Positions 13,267 through 42,149 of a DNA stretch of 64,000 nucleotides are shown piece by piece. Every line of letters starts with the position of its first letter. Positions within the stretch are counted from its first letter, which is position 1. The DNA is from Fragilaria crotonensis (taxonomy: Eukaryota; Bacillariophyta; Fragilariophyceae; Fragilariales; Fragilariaceae), in NCBI GenBank assembly GCA_022925895.1, contig JAKSYS010000029.1, positions 124,001 through 188,000 on the forward strand, in the 5' to 3' direction. A program made the translations under genes and the position numbers. The notes beneath the pieces were generated by a model. That model ran no database searches and was not told the DNA's origin. It saw nothing but the letters and a program-made list of their open reading frames with translations.

Positions 13267-13363
13267 TACAGTTCAGCACACAGTTCACGGGCTTTAAGCT
13301 ACGTAGTAACAACAAGCACCACTATAACCTAGACCACATACCATTATTACTTTTTCAAAGGCA

Positions 13364-13896
13364 TACTCCAGAACTCCTACAATGAGTTTTACGTTGTTGT
13401 TGGCGGAAAGAATGTAGCATGCAACTCGAAGCTGCGACTCTGAGTTCAAGGTGTGAATGCATTGACTGGCATGTTGAGACAACCGGTACGACTAACATCG
13501 GGTTGCAACTACTTAAGCACATACACATTTGCATCATACTCCAGTACTCCTACAATGAGTTTTACGTTGTTGTTGACGGAAAGAATGTAGCATGCAACTC
13601 GAAGCTGCTACTCTGAGTTCAAGGTGTGAATGCATTGACTGGCATGTTGAGACAACTGGTACTACTAGCTAGCATCGGGTTGCATCTACTTAAGCACATA
13701 CACATTTGCATCATACTCCAGTACTCCTACAATGAGTTTTACGTTGTTGTTGACGGAAAGAATGTAGCATGCAACTCGAAGCTGCTACTCTGAGTTCAAG
13801 GTGTGAATGCATTGACTGGCATGTTGGGACAACTGGCTGGTACTACTATCATCGGGTTGCAACTAGTACTTAAGCACATACACATTTGCATCATAC
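13364..13896. repeat. Tandem repeat, three units of 173-180 bp
   Basis: Three consecutive copies start at 13364, 13537 and 13714 with TACTCCAG.ACTCCTACAATG, and each contains GCATGCAACTCGAAGCTGC and TTGACTGGCATGTTGRGACA. Period lengths are 173, 177 and 180 bp, growing by small insertions such as CTAG before CATCGGGTTGC. The array stops at TCATACTTG near 13897. The units are highly similar, so the amplification is recent. Confidence 0.9.
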
Positions 13897-14050
13897 TTGC
13901 TATTAGTTGGCATGAATAAAAGTACTATAGGCATACTGACATGATAAAAGTACTATACTAGGCATAGTACTACATTCCAATAGAGTACTCATATACCTTT
14001 TCCAGCAGGTATGCGTTAAACCTTTCATTTCCATTTCCAATCATGTTCAC

Positions 14051-28137: not shown

Positions 28138-28609
28138 TCTCTTAACGAGGAAATGCAGAAGGGATGCTTCTATGTTGGAATCAATGAATATAAAGCATAC
28201 AACAGACGACAACGTAGAGAAAAAATGAGGGAGAATGATGCCTCCTTGTAGTCGTAATACTAGCATTTGACGCTCATCACACAAAGGAAAAATTGGCGCG
28301 TGAGTATAATGAGAAGACGGTGAGTATGTAGTATACGCAGTATAGGACTCACTGCACAAGTCACGATTATGGAAGGAAGAGACGATGGAGAAGAAGAGGA
28401 ATGGAACTGAAACTGCCAAAGTAATATGTGCAACAGGCAGTATTTAGGGAAAAAATGATGTGAAACTCAAATATTTATGTAAAACGTAAAACAGAATGTC
28501 CGAGAATTTGGATCTTCAACCCACGATATGCATTTGCATAATGATGTAGAATATACATATTTTTTATAAAAACTCTGGTCATCACATTATTATGTAATGA
28601 AATATTACA

Positions 28610-29081
28610 TTAAAATGGATAAACCAGAGATTTGCGTTCCCTGATGTCTGGGGCTGGCTTGTTGTTGTCAACAGCAAAACCCTGTGCTCGATAATTTGAG
28701 ATGTCTTCGTTCAAAATTGAAGGTATTTCACGCCCTTCAATCTCATCAGCCTCTCCAGCCACACGACCCCCACCTTCCAGATAGTCTTGTGATGGTATCA
28801 AATAATGATTCAACTGGTCCTTCTTCTTGAACCTTGCAGAAACGGGTCACAGCATGGAGTATCTGACCGTCGTCAAAAACCGCGTGATGCATCATGATAC
28901 AGCTCTGCAGTCGTTTGCAGACGACTTTCTCCTCCTGTCCGATGACAAGGAGGTCATCCAACACATCATTCTTTGATGCATTGGGATATTTAGCACATAC
29001 CACTGCTCGTGGGTGGAGAAACTTCTTGTAGACGGAGATCATGGCTCCGACGCCATGGCGTAGCCGTTTAATTTTGGGCAT
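28610..29081 (-). pseudogene. Small repeated-family protein, frameshifted
   Basis: ATG at 29081 opens MPKIKRLRHGVGAMISVYKK followed by FLHPRAVVCAKYPNASKNDV, a DDLLVIGQEEKVV block, an HHAVFDDGQILHAVTRF block and KVQEEGP. After EGP the frame must change (near 28.80 kb) to continue as LNHYLIPSQDYLEGGG...EIEGREIPSILNEDISNYRA. The block pattern resembles proteins that recur near transposons in diatoms, as far as I recall; no function is known to me. It lies between the Plavaka-type element and the MULE and belongs to neither by position. Confidence 0.45.
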
Positions 29082-29340
29082 GCTAATTTTCTAACATAAA
29101 AATTTATTCGTTTTATAGTACAACATTCAGTCATATCTCAACTTCTATCAATCCAATTAAGCTCATCTTGATAATCTGTATTGTACTCATTCACTATTTT
29201 CGTATTGTACGGAAGTATTCTTCTCTTGAACGAAAGGATCCAAAGTTAGATTTATTTTTAAAAACGACAGTGAATTACGTCGAATTTACTGAATTCAGTG
29301 GGGGTGGTCCAATATCCGCTTGAGTTTGTGTTTCCCGATG

Positions 29341-29349
29341 TTTTTTTAA
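29341..29349. repeat. 9-bp target-site duplication, left
   Basis: TTTTTTTAA directly precedes the left end of the MULE and is repeated exactly at 33876-33884. Nine bp is the Mutator-like target-duplication length. Confidence 0.9.
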
Positions 29350-29886
29350 GGGGAAATTGCTATCGTACCTGTTATCTATTCCAAAAATTGAAAACACCTG
29401 TTATCGGCTATAATATACCCCCTCAAATGACAATAATAGCATGCTAACTTTTACTATATCAAAAACACCTATTATCTTTTTGCCATGTTTTCAATAGCAC
29501 CATTTATGTTTTACACAACTTGCAATATCACCTATTACAATTTGCAATAACACCTGTTTTGATTATGCCAATTTCAACTCCACGCAAATTATCGTACCCC
29601 ATAACGTAGAATGCCAACACATTGACACACTTTCAAAGGTAAGGATCTCACGCATTGCTTAGCATTATCATGTGCTTCTCACTGATGAAATAAGCTGTGT
29701 TATTCCGTTGACAATGCTTGGTGTGATGGTGTGAGGAAGTATCTGGTCATCTTGTGTGCTCTTGGGTACATTCTGGTCGCATTGTCATATGCCTTCAGAT
29801 TTCTCGGGCTTGAGATGGGTCAGTAACAAAAAATCGCTCGTATACAGTGGTGTACAAATGTACAACGACGATCTTTTATGACACCA
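29350..29886 (+). repeat. Left terminal inverted repeat of MULE
   Basis: About 537 bp, AT-rich at the tip with repeated CACCT.TTA words (CACCTGTTATC, CACCTATTATC, CACCTATTAC, CACCTGTTTTG). Ends near CGACGATCTTTT. Such subterminal repeats often serve as transposase binding sites. Confidence 0.9.
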
Positions 29887-29988
29887 ACACAACACAATCT
29901 CATCAGCCATTCATCATCATCAACAGCATCACCCTCTCCCTCCCCCTTCCCTTTTTGACAGTCCCTGACACTGATTTCTTGTCTCATT

Positions 29989-30720
29989 ATGCCACCAAAG
30001 AAGAAGCCAAGAAGAGCAGCAGTTGAGAAGAGCTTTTTTTCCAGGAGACCCAAGGTTCTCTATTCCTCTCTCGGCACATGCAGAAGATGTGCAGGCGCTG
30101 CAGGAGAATAAGTATTTGAGTACAAACCTGTTGGACTACTTGATCCAAAGAGGAGCTCCATCTCCCACACCACCGTTGCTTCCTCCCTCTCAGGATGAAG
30201 ATATATCCGCACCACCATTGTACATTGGTGGATTAGCAACAACTTTCTTCATTGAGAAGGCAAATGAACTGGTGCTCCAATCAACGTCGCGAAAGAGCCT
30301 TGAAATCATTCAAACAAGCCTGAAGAGCTACAAAGCCACCACCCTTGCCAGGGGATCAAAGCTTGTTGTGCCAATGGTTCATAAGTCACATTTCTTTGTC
30401 CTTGTGATTGAGTTGACTGGAAAGCATGGTTGTGAATTCTACAAGGGTATTGAGTGCTACGACTCGATGGATTTTTGCAGTGCACCTACGACAAGGACAC
30501 GAGGTGCAGCAAGTCATATTCGTGCATTTCTTGCTGAATTTCACAAATTCGCGCTTTACTTTGTCTGTGATGATAAGTTTAAGATAGGTCGCCCTCAAAC
30601 TCAGGTCAAGCACTGCCCATGTCCGACTCAAGGTAATCTGATTGATTGTGGCCTCTTTTTCGATTGGTGTGGTTCTGCACATCATCGACAGTATTCCAAT
30701 CACCAATGAAACTTTCAAAC
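29989..30720 (+). pseudogene. Ulp1-like (C48) cysteine protease domain of MULE protein
   Basis: A likely start is ATG 29989, giving the basic MPPKKKPRRAAVEKS, possibly nuclear-targeting. The frame then changes within the seven-T run near 30033-30039 to the long frame that continues SIPLSAHAEDVQALQENKYL and STNLLDYLIQRG. The catalytic pattern of Ulp1/SENP proteases is complete: H in VHKSHFFVLVIE, D in ECYDSMD, Q in CPTQGNL and C in IDCGLF (residues 123, 147, 203 and 209 of the frame opening at 30023). Such enzymes cleave SUMO-like proteins or conjugates in the nucleus; what it would do for a transposon is unknown. At the T5 run just after DCGLF (about 30655-30660) the frame changes again to ...SIGVVLHIIDSIPITNETFK, the expected C-terminal helix. 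So the protease is whole in motif but needs two frame changes. Confidence 0.8.
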
Positions 30721-33235
30721 AAGAACATATGACAAAACTACGTTCTGATTTGGCAACTCACCTTGCCGCTGTTGAAAACTTATCCAAGTATCCACTTCCT
30801 TGCAGTGTCATCAGAGGATGCTTTCCCGCATTGCTCACCATGGACGACACCGATGATGGCAGCATTGTGGTTCTTGGAGTATCAAAAAATGCAGAGGACT
30901 CAGCAAATGCCGAGTCCTCAACTACTGAAGTTGAGGTCATCATGGACGGAAAAGTATCAACAAATGATGTGTCTGCTAATGCTGCAGAGTCATCCGCAGC
31001 CTTCTCATGTAATGTCATTGAGGGTATAGTGGATGGTAATGTAGCAACTAAAGAGTCAGCAGCAAAGGATGCAACACAGTCGCCTGGCATGCTTAAGCTT
31101 CTCATGGAAATGATCTCACCGGCAAGCCGTGCCATGAAGAAGTGTGGAGGCAAGATATTGAGATTTGAGGAAGGAGAGGAGAAGAACGATAAGAACGATA
31201 CTGAAAAGAAGAAGGTTGCTGGCGGTAGCGATATTGTACTAGTGCAAGCCCAGAAGACAGACTCCCAGGGCATGCCAAGTGAAGGTCAGGAACAACAAGG
31301 ATGCCAACCACTACAAGCACCTAACAAAATGAACACCGACGCAAAAGAGCATGTTGAAGATGTTGTATTTTCCAAACTAGTGAAGGAACTCAAAATTGAG
31401 TCCTTCAAAAGCCTTGCTGATGTGACTCCAGTCATGGAGCAATACCAGAAGCAGTCGGGATGTCAGGTTGCGATTCGTCGAAGTGAAGTGGACAAGTTCC
31501 GGGTCTACAAATGCGCTGAGCACGTCAACTGTGTGTTCAAGGTTCATGTTGGGAGGAGACGAATAGATGGCAAGTATGTCATCAAGAAGCAATCTGTGTT
31601 GCGTCACACAACGGTCCGTCGTCCACTCAAAGCAAGTGATGGGCGACAGTGGAAACAGCGGCGCGCTGAAAAAGTTCAGGAATACATTGAAGAGGCTGCA
31701 AAAACGAAGGTTGGAATACCAACTGCCCGAGATGTGATGAAAACGGGATCTCTGAAGGGAGATTCTGTGTCTTACTTTGCTGCCTACCGTGGCCTCCACA
31801 AAGACTCACTAATGTCAAAGCACAGAGCAAAAGAAGGCTACCAGCAAATGATTCCATACCTGCAACAGCTACTGAAAGGCAATGCGGCTTCAGTCATCGA
31901 GGGGAGACAAATGAGGATCATGAATTACTACAGGCTATGGTGATTCCGGGATTTATGGATGGCATCCTTAAGTTTGTACGCCCCGTGATCTCACTCGATG
32001 CGGCGCATATGAAATGTGCAGACCATGTTGGCACTCTTTACATTGCTTCTGTATTGTCAGGAGCTAACGAGGTATATCCGATTGGCTTCCTGCTGTCTTC
32101 TGGAAATGAAGACCGAGAAACATGGACACACTTCCTGACAAAGCTGAAACAGGCTTGCCCTTCTTTGTGTGAAAGGGATGCGACAACTGAGCTGAATCCT
32201 TTCATCTTTATCTCAGATCGTGACAAGGGACTTCAACAAGCCCTGGATGACGTGTTCCCAGACAACACAAACGTGCTGTGTGTCAAGCACATTGAAGCCA
32301 ATGTGAAGCAGAGGTTTGGTGCACAATGTGCGGCATATGTATTTCGGATTGCACGCACATTCTCTACTCGGCAGGAGAAGTTCTTCATTGATCAAGTACG
32401 GAAGCTAAGACCAGCCGCTGCAACCTACATAGAAAGCATTGATGGATTGTGGAAGAATACATCTTGGCTGGATGAGAACATGAGACTTCCGCCTCGGTAT
32501 GGAATCATTACATCAAACACAAGCGAATCTGCCAATAGCATGTTCCTTGCACCTCGCAGCATGCCATGGCTCGCAATCGAGAAGATTATTGACATCATGA
32601 CGAGTCGCATTTCAAGAAATAGAATGAAGTATGTTGACAAGAATCCAGATAATGTTGTTGCTGCTGTCTGGCAAAGGATTAGAGATGAAAGGGATGCTTC
32701 GGCCGGCTTTGATGTGTACGAGTTGGCAAGTGGAGGAGGGCAATATAAGGTAACACCTCAAACACAAGAAATGAGTTCGGGGGATCGTGCAACACACATA
32801 ATTCGGGTAATCGAAAGGTGGTGTACTTGTGGCTTCTGGCAAGATATTGGTATTCCGTGCCGTCACTTCATGGCATGTTTTCGAAAATTGAGAGATAGAA
32901 TGGAATTCACAAGTCTGTTGTCTGAATCACACGATGGCATACCAGACTTTTACAAGTACAAGGCACTGCAGCTTCTTTATGAACCGAACATTGTTCCAGT
33001 TGTGGTAGACACAATTGGTTATGACGGAAAAACAAAGCCTCCTCCACCAAGAATCAAGAGACAACCTGGTAGACCAAAAGTGAAAAGATACCGCAGACGG
33101 AGTGAACTCTCTGACCCATCAAAGTCGCCAATTGTGTGTTCCAAATGTAGAGAGCGTGGACACAATCGCCGAACATGTGGAATGAAACCAAAGGTGGTCC
33201 TTACAGAGGTTGCTGACAACAAACAAGAAGAATAG
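30642..33235 (+). pseudogene. MULE transposase with WRKY-GCM1-like, DDE, SWIM and CCHC zinc domains
   Basis: Frame 30642-31943 begins inside the protease helix, passes through a Ser/Glu-rich linker and reaches a MudrA/FAR1-like DNA-binding block (RVYKCAEHVNCVFKVHVGRR...HTTVR). Frame 31937-33235 holds the catalytic core: D21 in VISLDAAHMK, the ISDRDKG aspartates (94/96) with VKHIEANVKQRF behind them, and E197 in TSNTSESANSMF. Then come a SWIM finger (C296xC298, C308xH310), an AT-hook-like KRQPGRPKVKRYRRR and a CCHC knuckle C401-x2-C404-x4-H409-x4-C414. The two frames overlap near 31.94 kb, and the true crossover is slightly upstream at a GGGG run near 31900, where the second frame reads GETNEDHELLQAMV into the core. 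With that one change the transposase is complete. It would act at the element's ends in the nucleus. Confidence 0.88.
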
Positions 33236-33339
33236 TAGCTCTTAAAGTAGTTCAAGTTGCATGTATATGTGGTGTTGTGGCTGTTGCTCTTGATCATGAA
33301 GAACAGCTACTTCATGATGAGATTGTGTTGTGTCACTTG

Positions 33340-33875
33340 GTGTCCAAAAAAGATCGTCGTTGTACATTTGTACAGCACTGTATACAAGCGATTTTTTGTT
33401 ACTGACCCGTCTCAAGCCCAAGAAATCTGAAGACAAATGGCAATGCGACCAGAATGTACCCAAGAGCACACAAGATGACCACATACTTCCTCACACCAAC
33501 ACGCCAAGCCTTGTCAATGGAATAACACAGCTTATTTCATCAGTGAGAAGCACATGATAATGCTAAGCAATGCATGAGATCCTTACCTTTGAAAGTGTGT
33601 CAATGTGTTGGCATTCTACGTTATGGGGTACGATAATTTGCGTGGAGTTGAAATTGGCATAATCAAAACAGGTGTTATTGCAAGTTGTAATAGGTGATAT
33701 TGCAAGTTGTGTAAAACATAAATGGTGCTATTGAAAACATGGCAAAAAGATAATAGGTGTTTTTGATATAGTAAAAGTTAGCATGCTATTATTGTCATTT
33801 GAGGGGGTATATTATAGCCGATAACAGGTGTTTTCAATTTTTGGAATAGATAACAGGTACGATAGCAATTTCCCC
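33340..33875 (-). repeat. Right terminal inverted repeat of MULE
   Basis: Inverse of 29350-29886, with about 16 differences over about 535 bp by eye. The match begins at TGGTGTCC (about 33340) and runs to AATTTCCCC at 33875. Confidence 0.9.
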
Positions 33876-33884
33876 TTTTTTTAA
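33876..33884. repeat. 9-bp target-site duplication, right
   Basis: TTTTTTTAA, identical to 29341-29349. Confidence 0.9.
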
Positions 33885-33998: not shown

Positions 33999-34217
33999 GG
34001 GGAGCCCGTCTATGTCCCCTTTTTCGAGCCGGTCAAACGTTCTTCATAAATCGACTTCGTGAAATTTACTGCGTTATTAGCCAACCATTTACTTTTTATG
34101 GGATAAAAAAGCACCTCCAGAATCTCATCTCCGGATGGTATTCGTATAGACAGTGATGTAGAAGCTACGCAAATAAAAGATTGACCGGCTCGAAAAGGGG
34201 AAACAGACGGGCTCCCC
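33999..34217. mobile_element. Small inverted-repeat element (MITE-like)
   Basis: 219 bp. The left end is GGGGAGCCCGTCTATGTCCC followed by CTTTTTCGAGCCGGTCAAAC. The right end, reversed, is GGGGAGCCCGTCTGTTTCCC followed by CTTTTCGAGCCGGTCAATC. Arms of about 45 bp flank an unremarkable centre. No target duplication is obvious. A relic of the same arm lies at 17951-18000, so it is a dispersed family. It sits about 105 bp upstream of the TPR gene start, where it may contribute promoter sequence. Confidence 0.65.
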
Positions 34218-34322
34218 AATTATCGCGTATGCAACGCCACGATGCGAATTGTTTAGCTCGATCATGTTCGTTGCCTGCCCTATCAATAATGAGCACACTC
34301 GTAGAGTAAAACGAATTAAACG

Positions 34323-36458
34323 ATGACTGCTTCAACAAAGCGAGTCTTTGACGATGAACTTACTGAAGCAACTGACGATCGCGAGGAAGTAGGAGCCGGT
34401 GGAGTACCAAGTGAAGCCCAGCTTGTGCTTTTGTGCCTCGATTATCTGCGAGACCTTCGACGCTCGTACACTGAACAAGATTTGGTATCGGCTGAGGGCA
34501 TTGACGCTGATTACCTCTCGGTCGCCATCTACTCCTTGAGCAGAAGTTTCTTGCGCCCTCCTCAGCTTCTCATAACCAGCGAATTTGGAAACGATGCTTG
34601 GCTCGACCGACAAAAAGCCAACTCGATTGACCCTGAGACGTTTCCCCCTTCACCACCATTGGTAACCCGGAATCGAGTCGAACTCCCTGATCTAACTTCC
34701 ATTAACAAAGAAATCATGTATTCAGAATATCCCGAGAAGACTGCTCGTGATATCACTGTCAACGACGATAACGATGACGAGCAAGACGATGCCACTTCTT
34801 TGTACGCTTACGACGATGCGCATCCCAGTAACTCTCATCGCTTCTATCATTTGAATGGGTTGGCTTCGGGACAATTCTTACATGGACCTTTGACTCTTGG
34901 TGAGATCGCAGCTGCCGGCTTAGCTGGGCTCGGTGCAAGAGCTCGTTTAGATGCGGAACGTGAGATGATCAAATCCCCGCTTTTCGAACAATTCGTCGAA
35001 GCTGTTAGGGCCAAGGGATTTTTTCGAGACCCTGACACTGAGGGTACACGTGACGACCCAGAGGACGAACTGTTGCGACAACAGCGAGCACAGGAAATCT
35101 ATGAGGATAGATACCGCAAGGTTGTAGCCAAGTTCCGTACCAAACTTGCAACGAAGGCACAACAAGAAGCAAAGCCTTCCGCTGGATTCGGTAGTCCGTT
35201 TCCCGGTAGCCACGTTCCCTATTCTGCGGCGGAGAGACAACGTCGACGACGAGAGAAGCGTATAGCATTAGCGAAATCTAAGGCAAATACCCTCAATGTT
35301 GAGCACAGAGACAGGGCTTATAATAACAATTCGGCTCGTGCGAATGCCACGGATTCGTTGTGGGAAGCGCAATCGGTCGCGGTGTCTGTTGCGGCATCAA
35401 CGCACAACGTTCTTGACCTGGACGAGGCAGAGCGTCTTAAGTCACAGGGAAACCTGCATATGCAAAGGAAGGAGTACCAAGAAGCTGCTGATGCGTATAC
35501 AGCTGCACTGAAACTCAGTCCATCAGGGCCTCAGAGTCACGTATACTTTTCAAACCGAGCTGCCTCACTTTTAAGCATGAAAATGTTCAACGAGGCGATT
35601 TTAGACTCTGAACGAAGTTTGGCATTGAAGCCTGATTATGGCAAAGCCCACGCCCGCTTGGGGCTGGCTCATTTCTTGCTTGGCGACTACCGTCAAGCTA
35701 TGGAAGCATACACTGTTTCTCTGAAGTATGATCCAGATAACAAGAGCTCGAAGAGTTACTTGGAAAAGGCGGCAAGGCGGCTGGCGAAACAAGAAAAAGA
35801 CAGGTCGAGTGACGCACTTGTTACAGATTCGAGTTTCTCAGTTGTTACAGAGTGGGATAAATCGGAAGCAGGAAAATCGAAGAAAACTGGCGCCTCCTCG
35901 TTTGATAAGCAAGATGAGAGAAAGAAGTTGATCGATGAAAAAGAGGCGGAGAAGTACAAATTGAGAGGCAACTCATTCATGGCCAGCAGAGATTATCAAT
36001 CTGCGTTTGATGCATACTCTACCGCTCTCAAGCTTTGTTCGGATGGGAAGAACTCTCATGTTTACTACTCTAATCGTGCAGCAGCCTTGTGCTATCTGGA
36101 GCGATACGAAGAGGCGGAGGAAGACTCCGCGCGAAGTCTAACACTCGAACCTACGTATGGGAAGGCTCACGCTCGTCTCGGCTTATCTCGATTTTTTCTC
36201 GGAGACTATTTGGGAGCGGTTCAGGCATACACAGCTGCTCTCGAATATGATCCGAACAGTTCGGCTAGTAAGTCTTACTTGGCGAAAGCGAAAGCCCGCC
36301 TTGATCGTGAGAATCGCACCTATGGAGAAAAGTACGCGGATGGTTCCATCGACGCATTTCCGAATGACCAAGCGGCGCATGCTTCTGCAGAGACAGAGCG
36401 ACTCGCTGAGGGGTCGATGGCTAAGTCAGCAATGACGGAGTCCACTAAAGGACATTGA
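34323..36458 (+). CDS. TPR protein with two Hop-like three-TPR clusters
   Basis: 711-residue intronless protein from ATG 34323. The N-terminal third has a helical block (EAQLVLLCLDYLRDLRRSYT) and an acidic stretch; a basic coil (ERQRRRREKRIALAKSKA, about 304-321) follows. Residues 369-490 and 543-660 are two closely similar three-TPR clusters (AERLKSQGNLHMQRKEYQEA; AEKYKLRGNSFMASRDYQSA), an internal duplication. Both keep the carboxylate-clamp set that binds the EEVD tails of Hsp70/Hsp90: K373, N377, N411, K441, R445 in the first and K546, N550, N584, K614, R618 in the second. A cytosolic co-chaperone or scaffold role is inferred from that. No DP domains of Hop or other catalytic domains were seen. 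It is convergent with the ankyrin gene, 124 bp away. Confidence 0.88.
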   Translation: MTASTKRVFDDELTEATDDREEVGAGGVPSEAQLVLLCLDYLRDLRRSYTEQDLVSAEGIDADYLSVAIYSLSRSFLRPPQLLITSEFGNDAWLDRQKANSIDPETFPPSPPLVTRNRVELPDLTSINKEIMYSEYPEKTARDITVNDDNDDEQDDATSLYAYDDAHPSNSHRFYHLNGLASGQFLHGPLTLGEIAAAGLAGLGARARLDAEREMIKSPLFEQFVEAVRAKGFFRDPDTEGTRDDPEDELLRQQRAQEIYEDRYRKVVAKFRTKLATKAQQEAKPSAGFGSPFPGSHVPYSAAERQRRRREKRIALAKSKANTLNVEHRDRAYNNNSARANATDSLWEAQSVAVSVAASTHNVLDLDEAERLKSQGNLHMQRKEYQEAADAYTAALKLSPSGPQSHVYFSNRAASLLSMKMFNEAILDSERSLALKPDYGKAHARLGLAHFLLGDYRQAMEAYTVSLKYDPDNKSSKSYLEKAARRLAKQEKDRSSDALVTDSSFSVVTEWDKSEAGKSKKTGASSFDKQDERKKLIDEKEAEKYKLRGNSFMASRDYQSAFDAYSTALKLCSDGKNSHVYYSNRAAALCYLERYEEAEEDSARSLTLEPTYGKAHARLGLSRFFLGDYLGAVQAYTAALEYDPNSSASKSYLAKAKARLDRENRTYGEKYADGSIDAFPNDQAAHASAETERLAEGSMAKSAMTESTKGH

Positions 36459-41640: not shown

Positions 41641-41755
41641 TTTTACAGGTAGTTGACGGTTTTTAGTAACATGTGGTGCAAGAAAATACATAGGTACTCT
41701 GAGCATTTGTATGAGAATGGCCGAACGAAGTTTCAAACGACCTCAGCTGCGCATA

Positions 41756-42149
41756 TGACTGAACGCACACTTGTTTCTACATTAGTAGTAAACAAAATGT
41801 ATATGTCATATGTAGGTTCGCATTGACTGAACGCACGCTTCTTTCTACATTAGTAGTAATCAAAATGTATATGTCATATGTAGATTCGCATTGACTGAAC
41901 GCACGCTTCTTTCTACATTAGTAGTAATCAAAATGTATATGTCATATGTAGATTCGCATTTGACTGAACGCACACTTCTATCTACATTTAGTAGTAAACA
42001 AAATGTATATGTCATATGTAGATTGGCATTTGACTTCCTTCTACATTAGTAGCAATCAAAATGTATATGTCATATGTAGATTCGCATTTGACTGAACGCA
42101 CACTTCTTTCTACATTAGTAGTAAACAAAATGTATATGTCATATGTAGA
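41756..42149. repeat. Tandem repeat, six units of about 67-70 bp
   Basis: Units begin TGACTGAACGCACRCTTCTT, continue CTACATTAGTAGTAAWCAAA and ATGTATATGTCATATGTAGA and end TTCGCAT(T). Starts are near 41756, 41824, 41891, 41960, 42031 and 42090; the fifth unit lacks part of the opening. Units are over 90% alike by eye. Confidence 0.9.

Follow-up and report, generated by a model that had tools for sequence, protein, structure and literature searches.

The window, by which we mean the whole 64,000-nucleotide stretch of contig JAKSYS010000029.1 analysed here (positions 124,001 to 188,000), contains at window positions 29350-33875 a Mutator-like element (MULE) of 4526 bp. Its plus strand encodes, in this order, a Ulp1-type protease, a likely DNA-binding region, a MULE DDE core, a SWIM zinc finger and a CCHC zinc knuckle. 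It is quite probable that the native product of this family is one protein uniting protease and transposase, and that the family is one of cut-and-paste Mutator-like DNA transposons. The copy in the window inserted recently, and its reading is interrupted in the present assembly.

Ends and coding content of the window element

The inverted ends of the element (29348-29880 and 33345-33877) are 533 nt long and 97% complementary, in keeping with the 535 bp at about 97% reported in a first-pass annotation of the window. blastn stretches the match to 29350-29905 for the left terminal inverted repeat (TIR), on the plus strand, and 33315-33875 for the right one, on the minus strand, with 96.4% over 561 columns. 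The 9-mer TTTTTTTAA stands immediately before the left terminus GGGGAAATTGCT (29341-29349) and again immediately after the right terminus AGCAATTTCCCC (33876-33884), so that the exact 9-bp target-site duplication noted earlier is indeed present. MULEs typically duplicate about 9 bp of their target site. The long TIRs, the duplication and the MULE-type DDE transposase place the element among the MULEs. The end sequence recurs in the genome, where 44 matches were counted, and chance is thereby ruled out as the origin of the inverted ends.

The coding region of the window copy is divided among three plus-strand readings. The first (29975-30709, 244 amino acids) carries the motif FPGDPRF (30038-30058) on its N-terminal side and covers most of the Ulp1 domain, including the catalytic set (30389-30649): His at 30389-30391, Asp at 30461-30463, Gln at 30629-30631 and Cys at 30647-30649. 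The H-D-Q-C pattern had been called complete, and all four residues are in place. The second reading (30642-31943, 433 amino acids) supplies the end of the Ulp1 domain, a linker and a C..H..C region (about 31401-31640), while the third (31691-33235, 514 amino acids) is the MULE transposase with its DDE core (31985-32299; motifs SLDAAH and SDRDKG), SWIM finger (32804-32875, the motif itself at 32819-32866) and CCHC knuckle CSKCRERGHNRRTC (33137-33178). With Pfam cut-offs of 27.6 bits for MULE (PF10551), 19.6 for SWIM (PF04434) and 20.7 for Peptidase_C48, the MULE core (37.9 bits, E 2.5e-9) and the SWIM finger (21.1 bits) score above their thresholds and the protease (17.5 bits) slightly below, its reading being interrupted just after the catalytic Cys. 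The CCHC knuckle was read by eye, Pfam offering no more than a sub-threshold C2H2 match at this site. The same-strand order of DDE core, SWIM and CCHC downstream of the protease therefore stands, the first two by profile and the third by its motif. The predicted native product further includes a basic GRPK stretch between the SWIM finger and the knuckle. The C..H..C region likely binds DNA, a function that we infer rather than assign because the DBD_Tnp_Mut match, seen in sister families, is weak and stays below threshold. In the window copy no single open frame spans both protease and transposase: relative to the majority of nine copies (see below), three indels break the frame, near 30.03, 30.66 and 31.90 kb.

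Sister copies, related families and the fused reading

The genome comprises 62.1 Mb in 881 contigs, and loci are named here by contig (C) or by fetched locus (L). Nine near-full copies of the window family, termed F1, were found (the window, C329, C875, C54, C71, C285, C298, C566 and C62), and they are pairwise 97.2-99.6% alike. Exact 9-bp duplications flank seven of the nine, at five distinct, AT-rich target sites: TTTTTTTAA in the window, TTATTTGTA in C875, TATTATAAA in C285, TATTTATAA in C566 and TACATATAA in C71, C298 and C62. The last three copies, two of which miss two terminal bases, represent one site held three times, since their flanks are shared. The remaining two, C54 and C329, are cut off where their contigs stop; at C329 five flanking bases remain, which mismatch the left 9-mer in register. 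The close similarity of the copies and their exact duplications bear out the recent movement proposed in the first pass, and copies with the same TIRs do occur between independent 9-bp flanks. Private frame-shifting indels range from none (C62) to 45 (C566) per copy and may reflect decay or assembly error in repeats.

The insertion shared by C71, C298 and C62 (L013, L015 and L017) lies on three contigs, as a duplicated locus or as separated haplotypes. At C870, a derivative of about 880 bp (L024:1241-2119) contains little beyond two inverted F1 ends; its flanks agree at eight of nine bases, as read by eye, and it is likely a non-autonomous element.

The surroundings of the window insertion are repetitive. 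On the right, a repeat of about 217 bp resembling a miniature inverted-repeat transposable element (34000-34217) precedes a TPR-like reading (34320-36458) and has at least 17 further genome matches at 86-94%, some of them partial. The left flank holds a 148-bp repeat (28500-28647; 87-99%) and a longer sequence (28647-29321) that is 69-76% alike at many places and stops about 28 bp short of the insertion. Searches with the flanks returned repeat relatives only, and no insertion-free allele (empty site) was found among them.

In two sister copies, those of C54 and C875, Peptidase_C48 (28.7 bits in one, 29.5 in the other) and MULE both exceed the Pfam cut-offs in a single unaltered reading. The first-pass annotation had suggested one polyprotein-like reading for the window element; the one-frame join holds for these sister copies and not for the window copy with its three readings.

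The same arrangement is found in related elements. Profile matches were counted to E 0.01 for PF02902 (Ulp1) and to E 0.001 for PF10551, and the genome totals are lower bounds: at least 58 Ulp1 and at least 91 MULE matches. Among the 58 Ulp1 matches listed, 29 have a MULE match on the same strand 1016-1634 bp downstream (median 1125), and five have one on the opposite strand. Conversely, for 57 of the 91 MULE matches listed, no Ulp1 match lies within 4 kb. The fetched loci, a set that leaves aside the lower-scoring Ulp1 loci and nearly all Ulp1-less MULEs, fall into seven families: F1, F2, F3, F4 (which includes F5, at 97%), F6, F7 and F8. Readings that pass both cut-offs occur in four of these seven. 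Besides F1, they were seen in F2 (L060/C873, 1042 amino acids and including SWIM; L052/C165), F3 (L047/C509 and L040/C631) and F6 (L048/C636).

F1, F3 and F6 have the terminus GGGGAAATT in common. The F3 copy at C49 is a complete element of about 4.35 kb, with ends of about 490 bp at 93% and a 968-amino-acid reading that has the catalytic residues and a PF10551 match. Its flanks read TTTAAAAAA on both sides by eye; the automatic duplication test was negative, the right end being one C short of the left-end G count. For F2 the right boundary was found, reading AATTTCC(CC), and the left end was not. The flanks of F6 differ at three loci, its right end not being reached in the fetched sequence. 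C129 belongs to F8 by sequence, and no MULE match was found at this locus. An inverted F1 fragment lies just downstream of the F3 element at C509 (L062:5055-5603), and likewise at C631 and C646. A first scan of IMG/VR viral contigs gave no matches, and a second gave 98 stretches, none of which was confirmed as a relative. The spread of related elements with the same join through the genome suggests that the transposon benefits from the protease.

Several observations weigh against a single native protein. None of the nine near-full F1 copies has a complete unbroken reading. That of C54 (801 amino acids) crosses a deletion of 224 bp at one edge of the MULE core, and that of C875 (858 amino acids) starts just ahead of the catalytic His. 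No fused reading was seen in the fetched loci of F4, F7 and F8. Moreover, 24 of the 58 Ulp1 matches listed have no MULE match within 4 kb; four of these are the two exons of a duplicated, putative host gene (see below), one is an F1 copy at a contig edge and three belong to F6, while 13 of the other 16 lie outside the fetched set. The broken frames of the window copy, together with the many private indels that distinguish the copies, might even lead one to regard the one-frame fusion as an artefact of assembly or annotation that joins two elements. This is hardly credible, given that uninterrupted fusions occur in four families on separate contigs and that the spacing from protease to MULE is similar across 29 loci.

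Family F7 presents the protease without a DDE core. At C20, a minus-strand reading of 502 amino acids contains the Ulp1 domain, the C..H..C region and the CCHC knuckle, the DDE core and SWIM finger being absent, and the plus strand encodes a 795-amino-acid MULE transposase of another type. Both readings lie within a unit of about 8.55 kb (L061; C20:8676-17229) with short ends GGATCCGATTAACTG. Many copies share the left boundary of this unit, at C20:8676; the right end of the unit has a 39-bp inverted match, and no target-site duplication was seen for this long element at C20. The stretch around the start of the F7 Ulp1 is full in six loci (C20, C579, C313, C137, C193 and C166) and partial in C346 and C91, while at C780 and six other places (C54, C876 twice, C311, C571 and C394) the match is found only farther out. 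It seems that one subfamily of the long MULE carries the protease and another does not, the Ulp1 gene at these places being covered by the genome-wide profile search only.

Comparison with known Ulp1-bearing transposons

A light-harvesting protein encoded by the genome matches fucoxanthin photosystem-I antenna chains first (FCPI-7 of 6ly5, which we take to be a diatom entry; E 1.4e-87). The host thus appears to be an alga, as first supposed, and a diatom or a close relative.

Ulp1-bearing MULEs are known from plants, hydra and lancelet, and Ulp1 domains occur more widely in MULE, CACTA, Ginger and Crypton elements (PMC2528002, PMC2836005, PMC3212892). The window element had been likened to the Kaonashi (KI/KIU) MULEs of Arabidopsis, which also carry a Ulp1 (C48) domain and are present in many copies. 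This assignment does not survive comparison. Apart from the Ulp1 catalytic residues, the build differs: Kaonashi MULEs are described as non-TIR elements with the ULP domain reversed relative to mudrA (PMC2528002) and encoded by one gene out of the element's three (PMC13317346), whereas the window family has long TIRs and, in place of a separate reversed ULP gene, a protease on the same strand as the transposase, in the same frame in two sister copies and in one fused reading. The layout of F7 is nearer to Kaonashi than that of the window family, its protease being antisense to a MULE transposase much as the Kaonashi ULP domain is reversed to mudrA (PMC2528002).

In ULP-containing MULEs of melon, rice and grapevine, ULP is found in both direct and reverse orientation, and in melon in TIR-MULEs too. 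These are land-plant elements, compared by description only, and the host here appears to be an alga. Because they show direct orientation, in melon in TIR-MULEs, a same-strand and perhaps same-frame Ulp1 in a TIR-MULE is by itself no novelty. Mutator (MuDR) elements of hydra, lancelet and maize likewise encode Ulp1, aligned as part of 'Mutator TPases' (PMC2836005); they differ in host and were again compared by description only. The MULE-Diatoms (group 37 of Dupeyron et al. 2019) share with the window family a stramenopile host, a SWIM finger and one open reading frame, but have TIRs of 123-124 bp, no target-site duplication or none indicated, and no extra domain (PMC6446971). The main text of that survey makes no mention of Ulp1, C48 or peptidase (PMC6446971). 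Ginger1 and CryptonS/CryptonF resemble the window family in that the same kind of protease is fused to a DNA transposon or travels with it. They belong to other transposase or recombinase classes, however, and the Ulp1 of Ginger1 is C-terminal (PMC2836005) rather than N-terminal. C48 is present in Cryptons of oomycetes and in some members of CryptonS, a group found in oomycetes and one diatom (PMC3212892).

No published diatom Ulp1-MULE was found in the open-licence literature, most subscription papers and Repbase lying outside this search. As far as seen, what is new is a lineage of several families that combines an N-terminal protease in one reading with long TIRs in a diatom-like alga, together with a DDE-less derivative. 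This extends the association of Ulp1 with MULEs to such an alga.

The protease and its possible role

His, Asp, Gln and Cys are kept in all seven families (one Ulp1 sequence of each being aligned), although the domain is only about 26-65% identical between families. A profile built from seven element sequences has SENP1 as its top match (E 9.5e-8), with the catalytic residues aligned, followed by SENP2, SENP7, yeast Ulp1 (8.3e-5), SENP5 (0.0015) and others, with SENP8 last (0.87). The H-D-Q-C set and the similarity to SENP/Ulp1 are features of SUMO proteases, and a SUMO-protease-like activity is predicted for the domain. The putative host SENP-like gene (C460/C52) is recognized by its top scores, by its split exons and by having no MULE match nearer than 4 kb. 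Against its N-terminal exon at C460, the only part compared and one without the catalytic Cys, the element proteases show 12-20% identity, with 26-64% between families in that comparison. On these single-exon identities, recent capture of the protease from this gene was rejected.

For seven Ulp1 sequence pairs, the ratio of nonsynonymous to synonymous substitution rates (dN/dS) was 0.40, 0.32, 0.14, 0.13, 0.12, 0.44 and 1.32, that is, below 0.5 (0.12-0.44) in six of the seven; the rest of the reading gave 0.13-0.81. Trees of five families agree for Ulp1 and MULE on one of two internal splits (F2+F4). To be set on the other side are the F7 pair, whose 1.32 rests on about three changes, the nature of the estimates in general (stretches of low local identity excluded, 3-31 changes per pair, pairs sharing sequences), and the conflict of the trees over the second split, which is F3+F6 for Ulp1 (support 1.00) and F1+F3 for MULE (0.895, F1 being long-branched). 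Owing to this disagreement strict co-inheritance of the two domains is not proven, and domain swaps between families are possible.

MULEs often capture genes, and a review describes the Ulp1 of plant MULEs as transduplicated (PMC13317346). The protease might accordingly be a passenger, a captured host gene fragment in the manner of Pack-MULEs with no role of its own, as the F7 ratio would allow. We consider this very unlikely, for the catalytic residues persist across such divergent families, the ratios are low in the other six pairs, order and spacing are constant in the 29 loci, and the element protease is far from the host SENP-like gene.

What, then, might the protease do? The transposase protein would bind the long inverted ends, as expected from MULE biology, and the MULE core would cut and paste the element, duplicating 9 bp, as the family and its flanks indicate. 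Less certainly, the likeliest role of the protease, riding on the DNA-binding transposase, would be to strip SUMO or some similar modifier from proteins at the element. Its targets would most probably be factors that act in silencing or repair, and the element would thereby be helped to stay expressed and to complete transposition. In yeast, plants and animals, SUMO reportedly promotes silent chromatin (PMC8131101). Nine PF11976 matches point to SUMO-like genes in the genome. The Ulp1-carrying VANC (KIU) genes of Arabidopsis reportedly cause related elements to become hypomethylated, the function of the Ulp1 domain in plant MULEs being given as unknown in the same review (PMC13317346). We tentatively favour an anti-silencing role, while granting it somewhat less than an even chance. 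It fits better than a catalytic role because F7 has dropped the DDE core and kept the protease and the C..H..C region.

Alternatively, the protease may deSUMOylate the transposase itself, or repair proteins at the break site, and so assist strand transfer or repair rather than counteract silencing. A role of Ulp1/OTU in repair during transposition has been proposed for Ginger elements (PMC2836005). Such a role is possible, if doubtful, and alone it leaves unexplained the persistence of the protease and the C..H..C region in F7.

The single frame, the N-terminal position of the protease and the long linker would also suit a polyprotein protease that releases itself from the transposase in the manner of viral Ulp1-like proteases. 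Cleavage by Ulp1 enzymes takes place after Gly-Gly, and when the aligned linkers were searched by eye a Gly-Gly pair was located in the stretch from the catalytic Cys to the C..H..C region in F1, F2, F3 and F4. These pairs lie at unrelated places, save one common to F2 and F4, and none is present in F6, F7 and F8; F7, moreover, has lost the DDE core and yet retains the link between protease and C..H..C region. Self-processing at Gly-Gly was rejected since the pairs are not conserved, and the processing implied by the polyprotein-like reading of the first pass is not supported. We regard this explanation as a poor prospect, though less so than a passenger.

The anti-silencing role can be carried further. 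A whole transposase lineage may carry its own DNA-targeted deSUMOylase, which would strip host silencing from the element. The lineage would also have yielded a version that lacks the transposase and consists of protease, DNA-binding region and CCHC knuckle, antisense to an unrelated MULE transposase gene. Such a version would be a ready-made anti-silencing gene and an independent parallel to plant Kaonashi/VANC. This extended proposal is speculative and, taken as a whole, rather unlikely. Nevertheless, a fused lineage with kept catalytic residues and a DDE-less derivative makes it testable whether the protease serves transposition chemistry, repair or escape from silencing.

Elsewhere in the window, tandem repeats were noted with a 177-bp unit repeated three times (13362-13897) and a 68-bp unit repeated six times (41750-42149).

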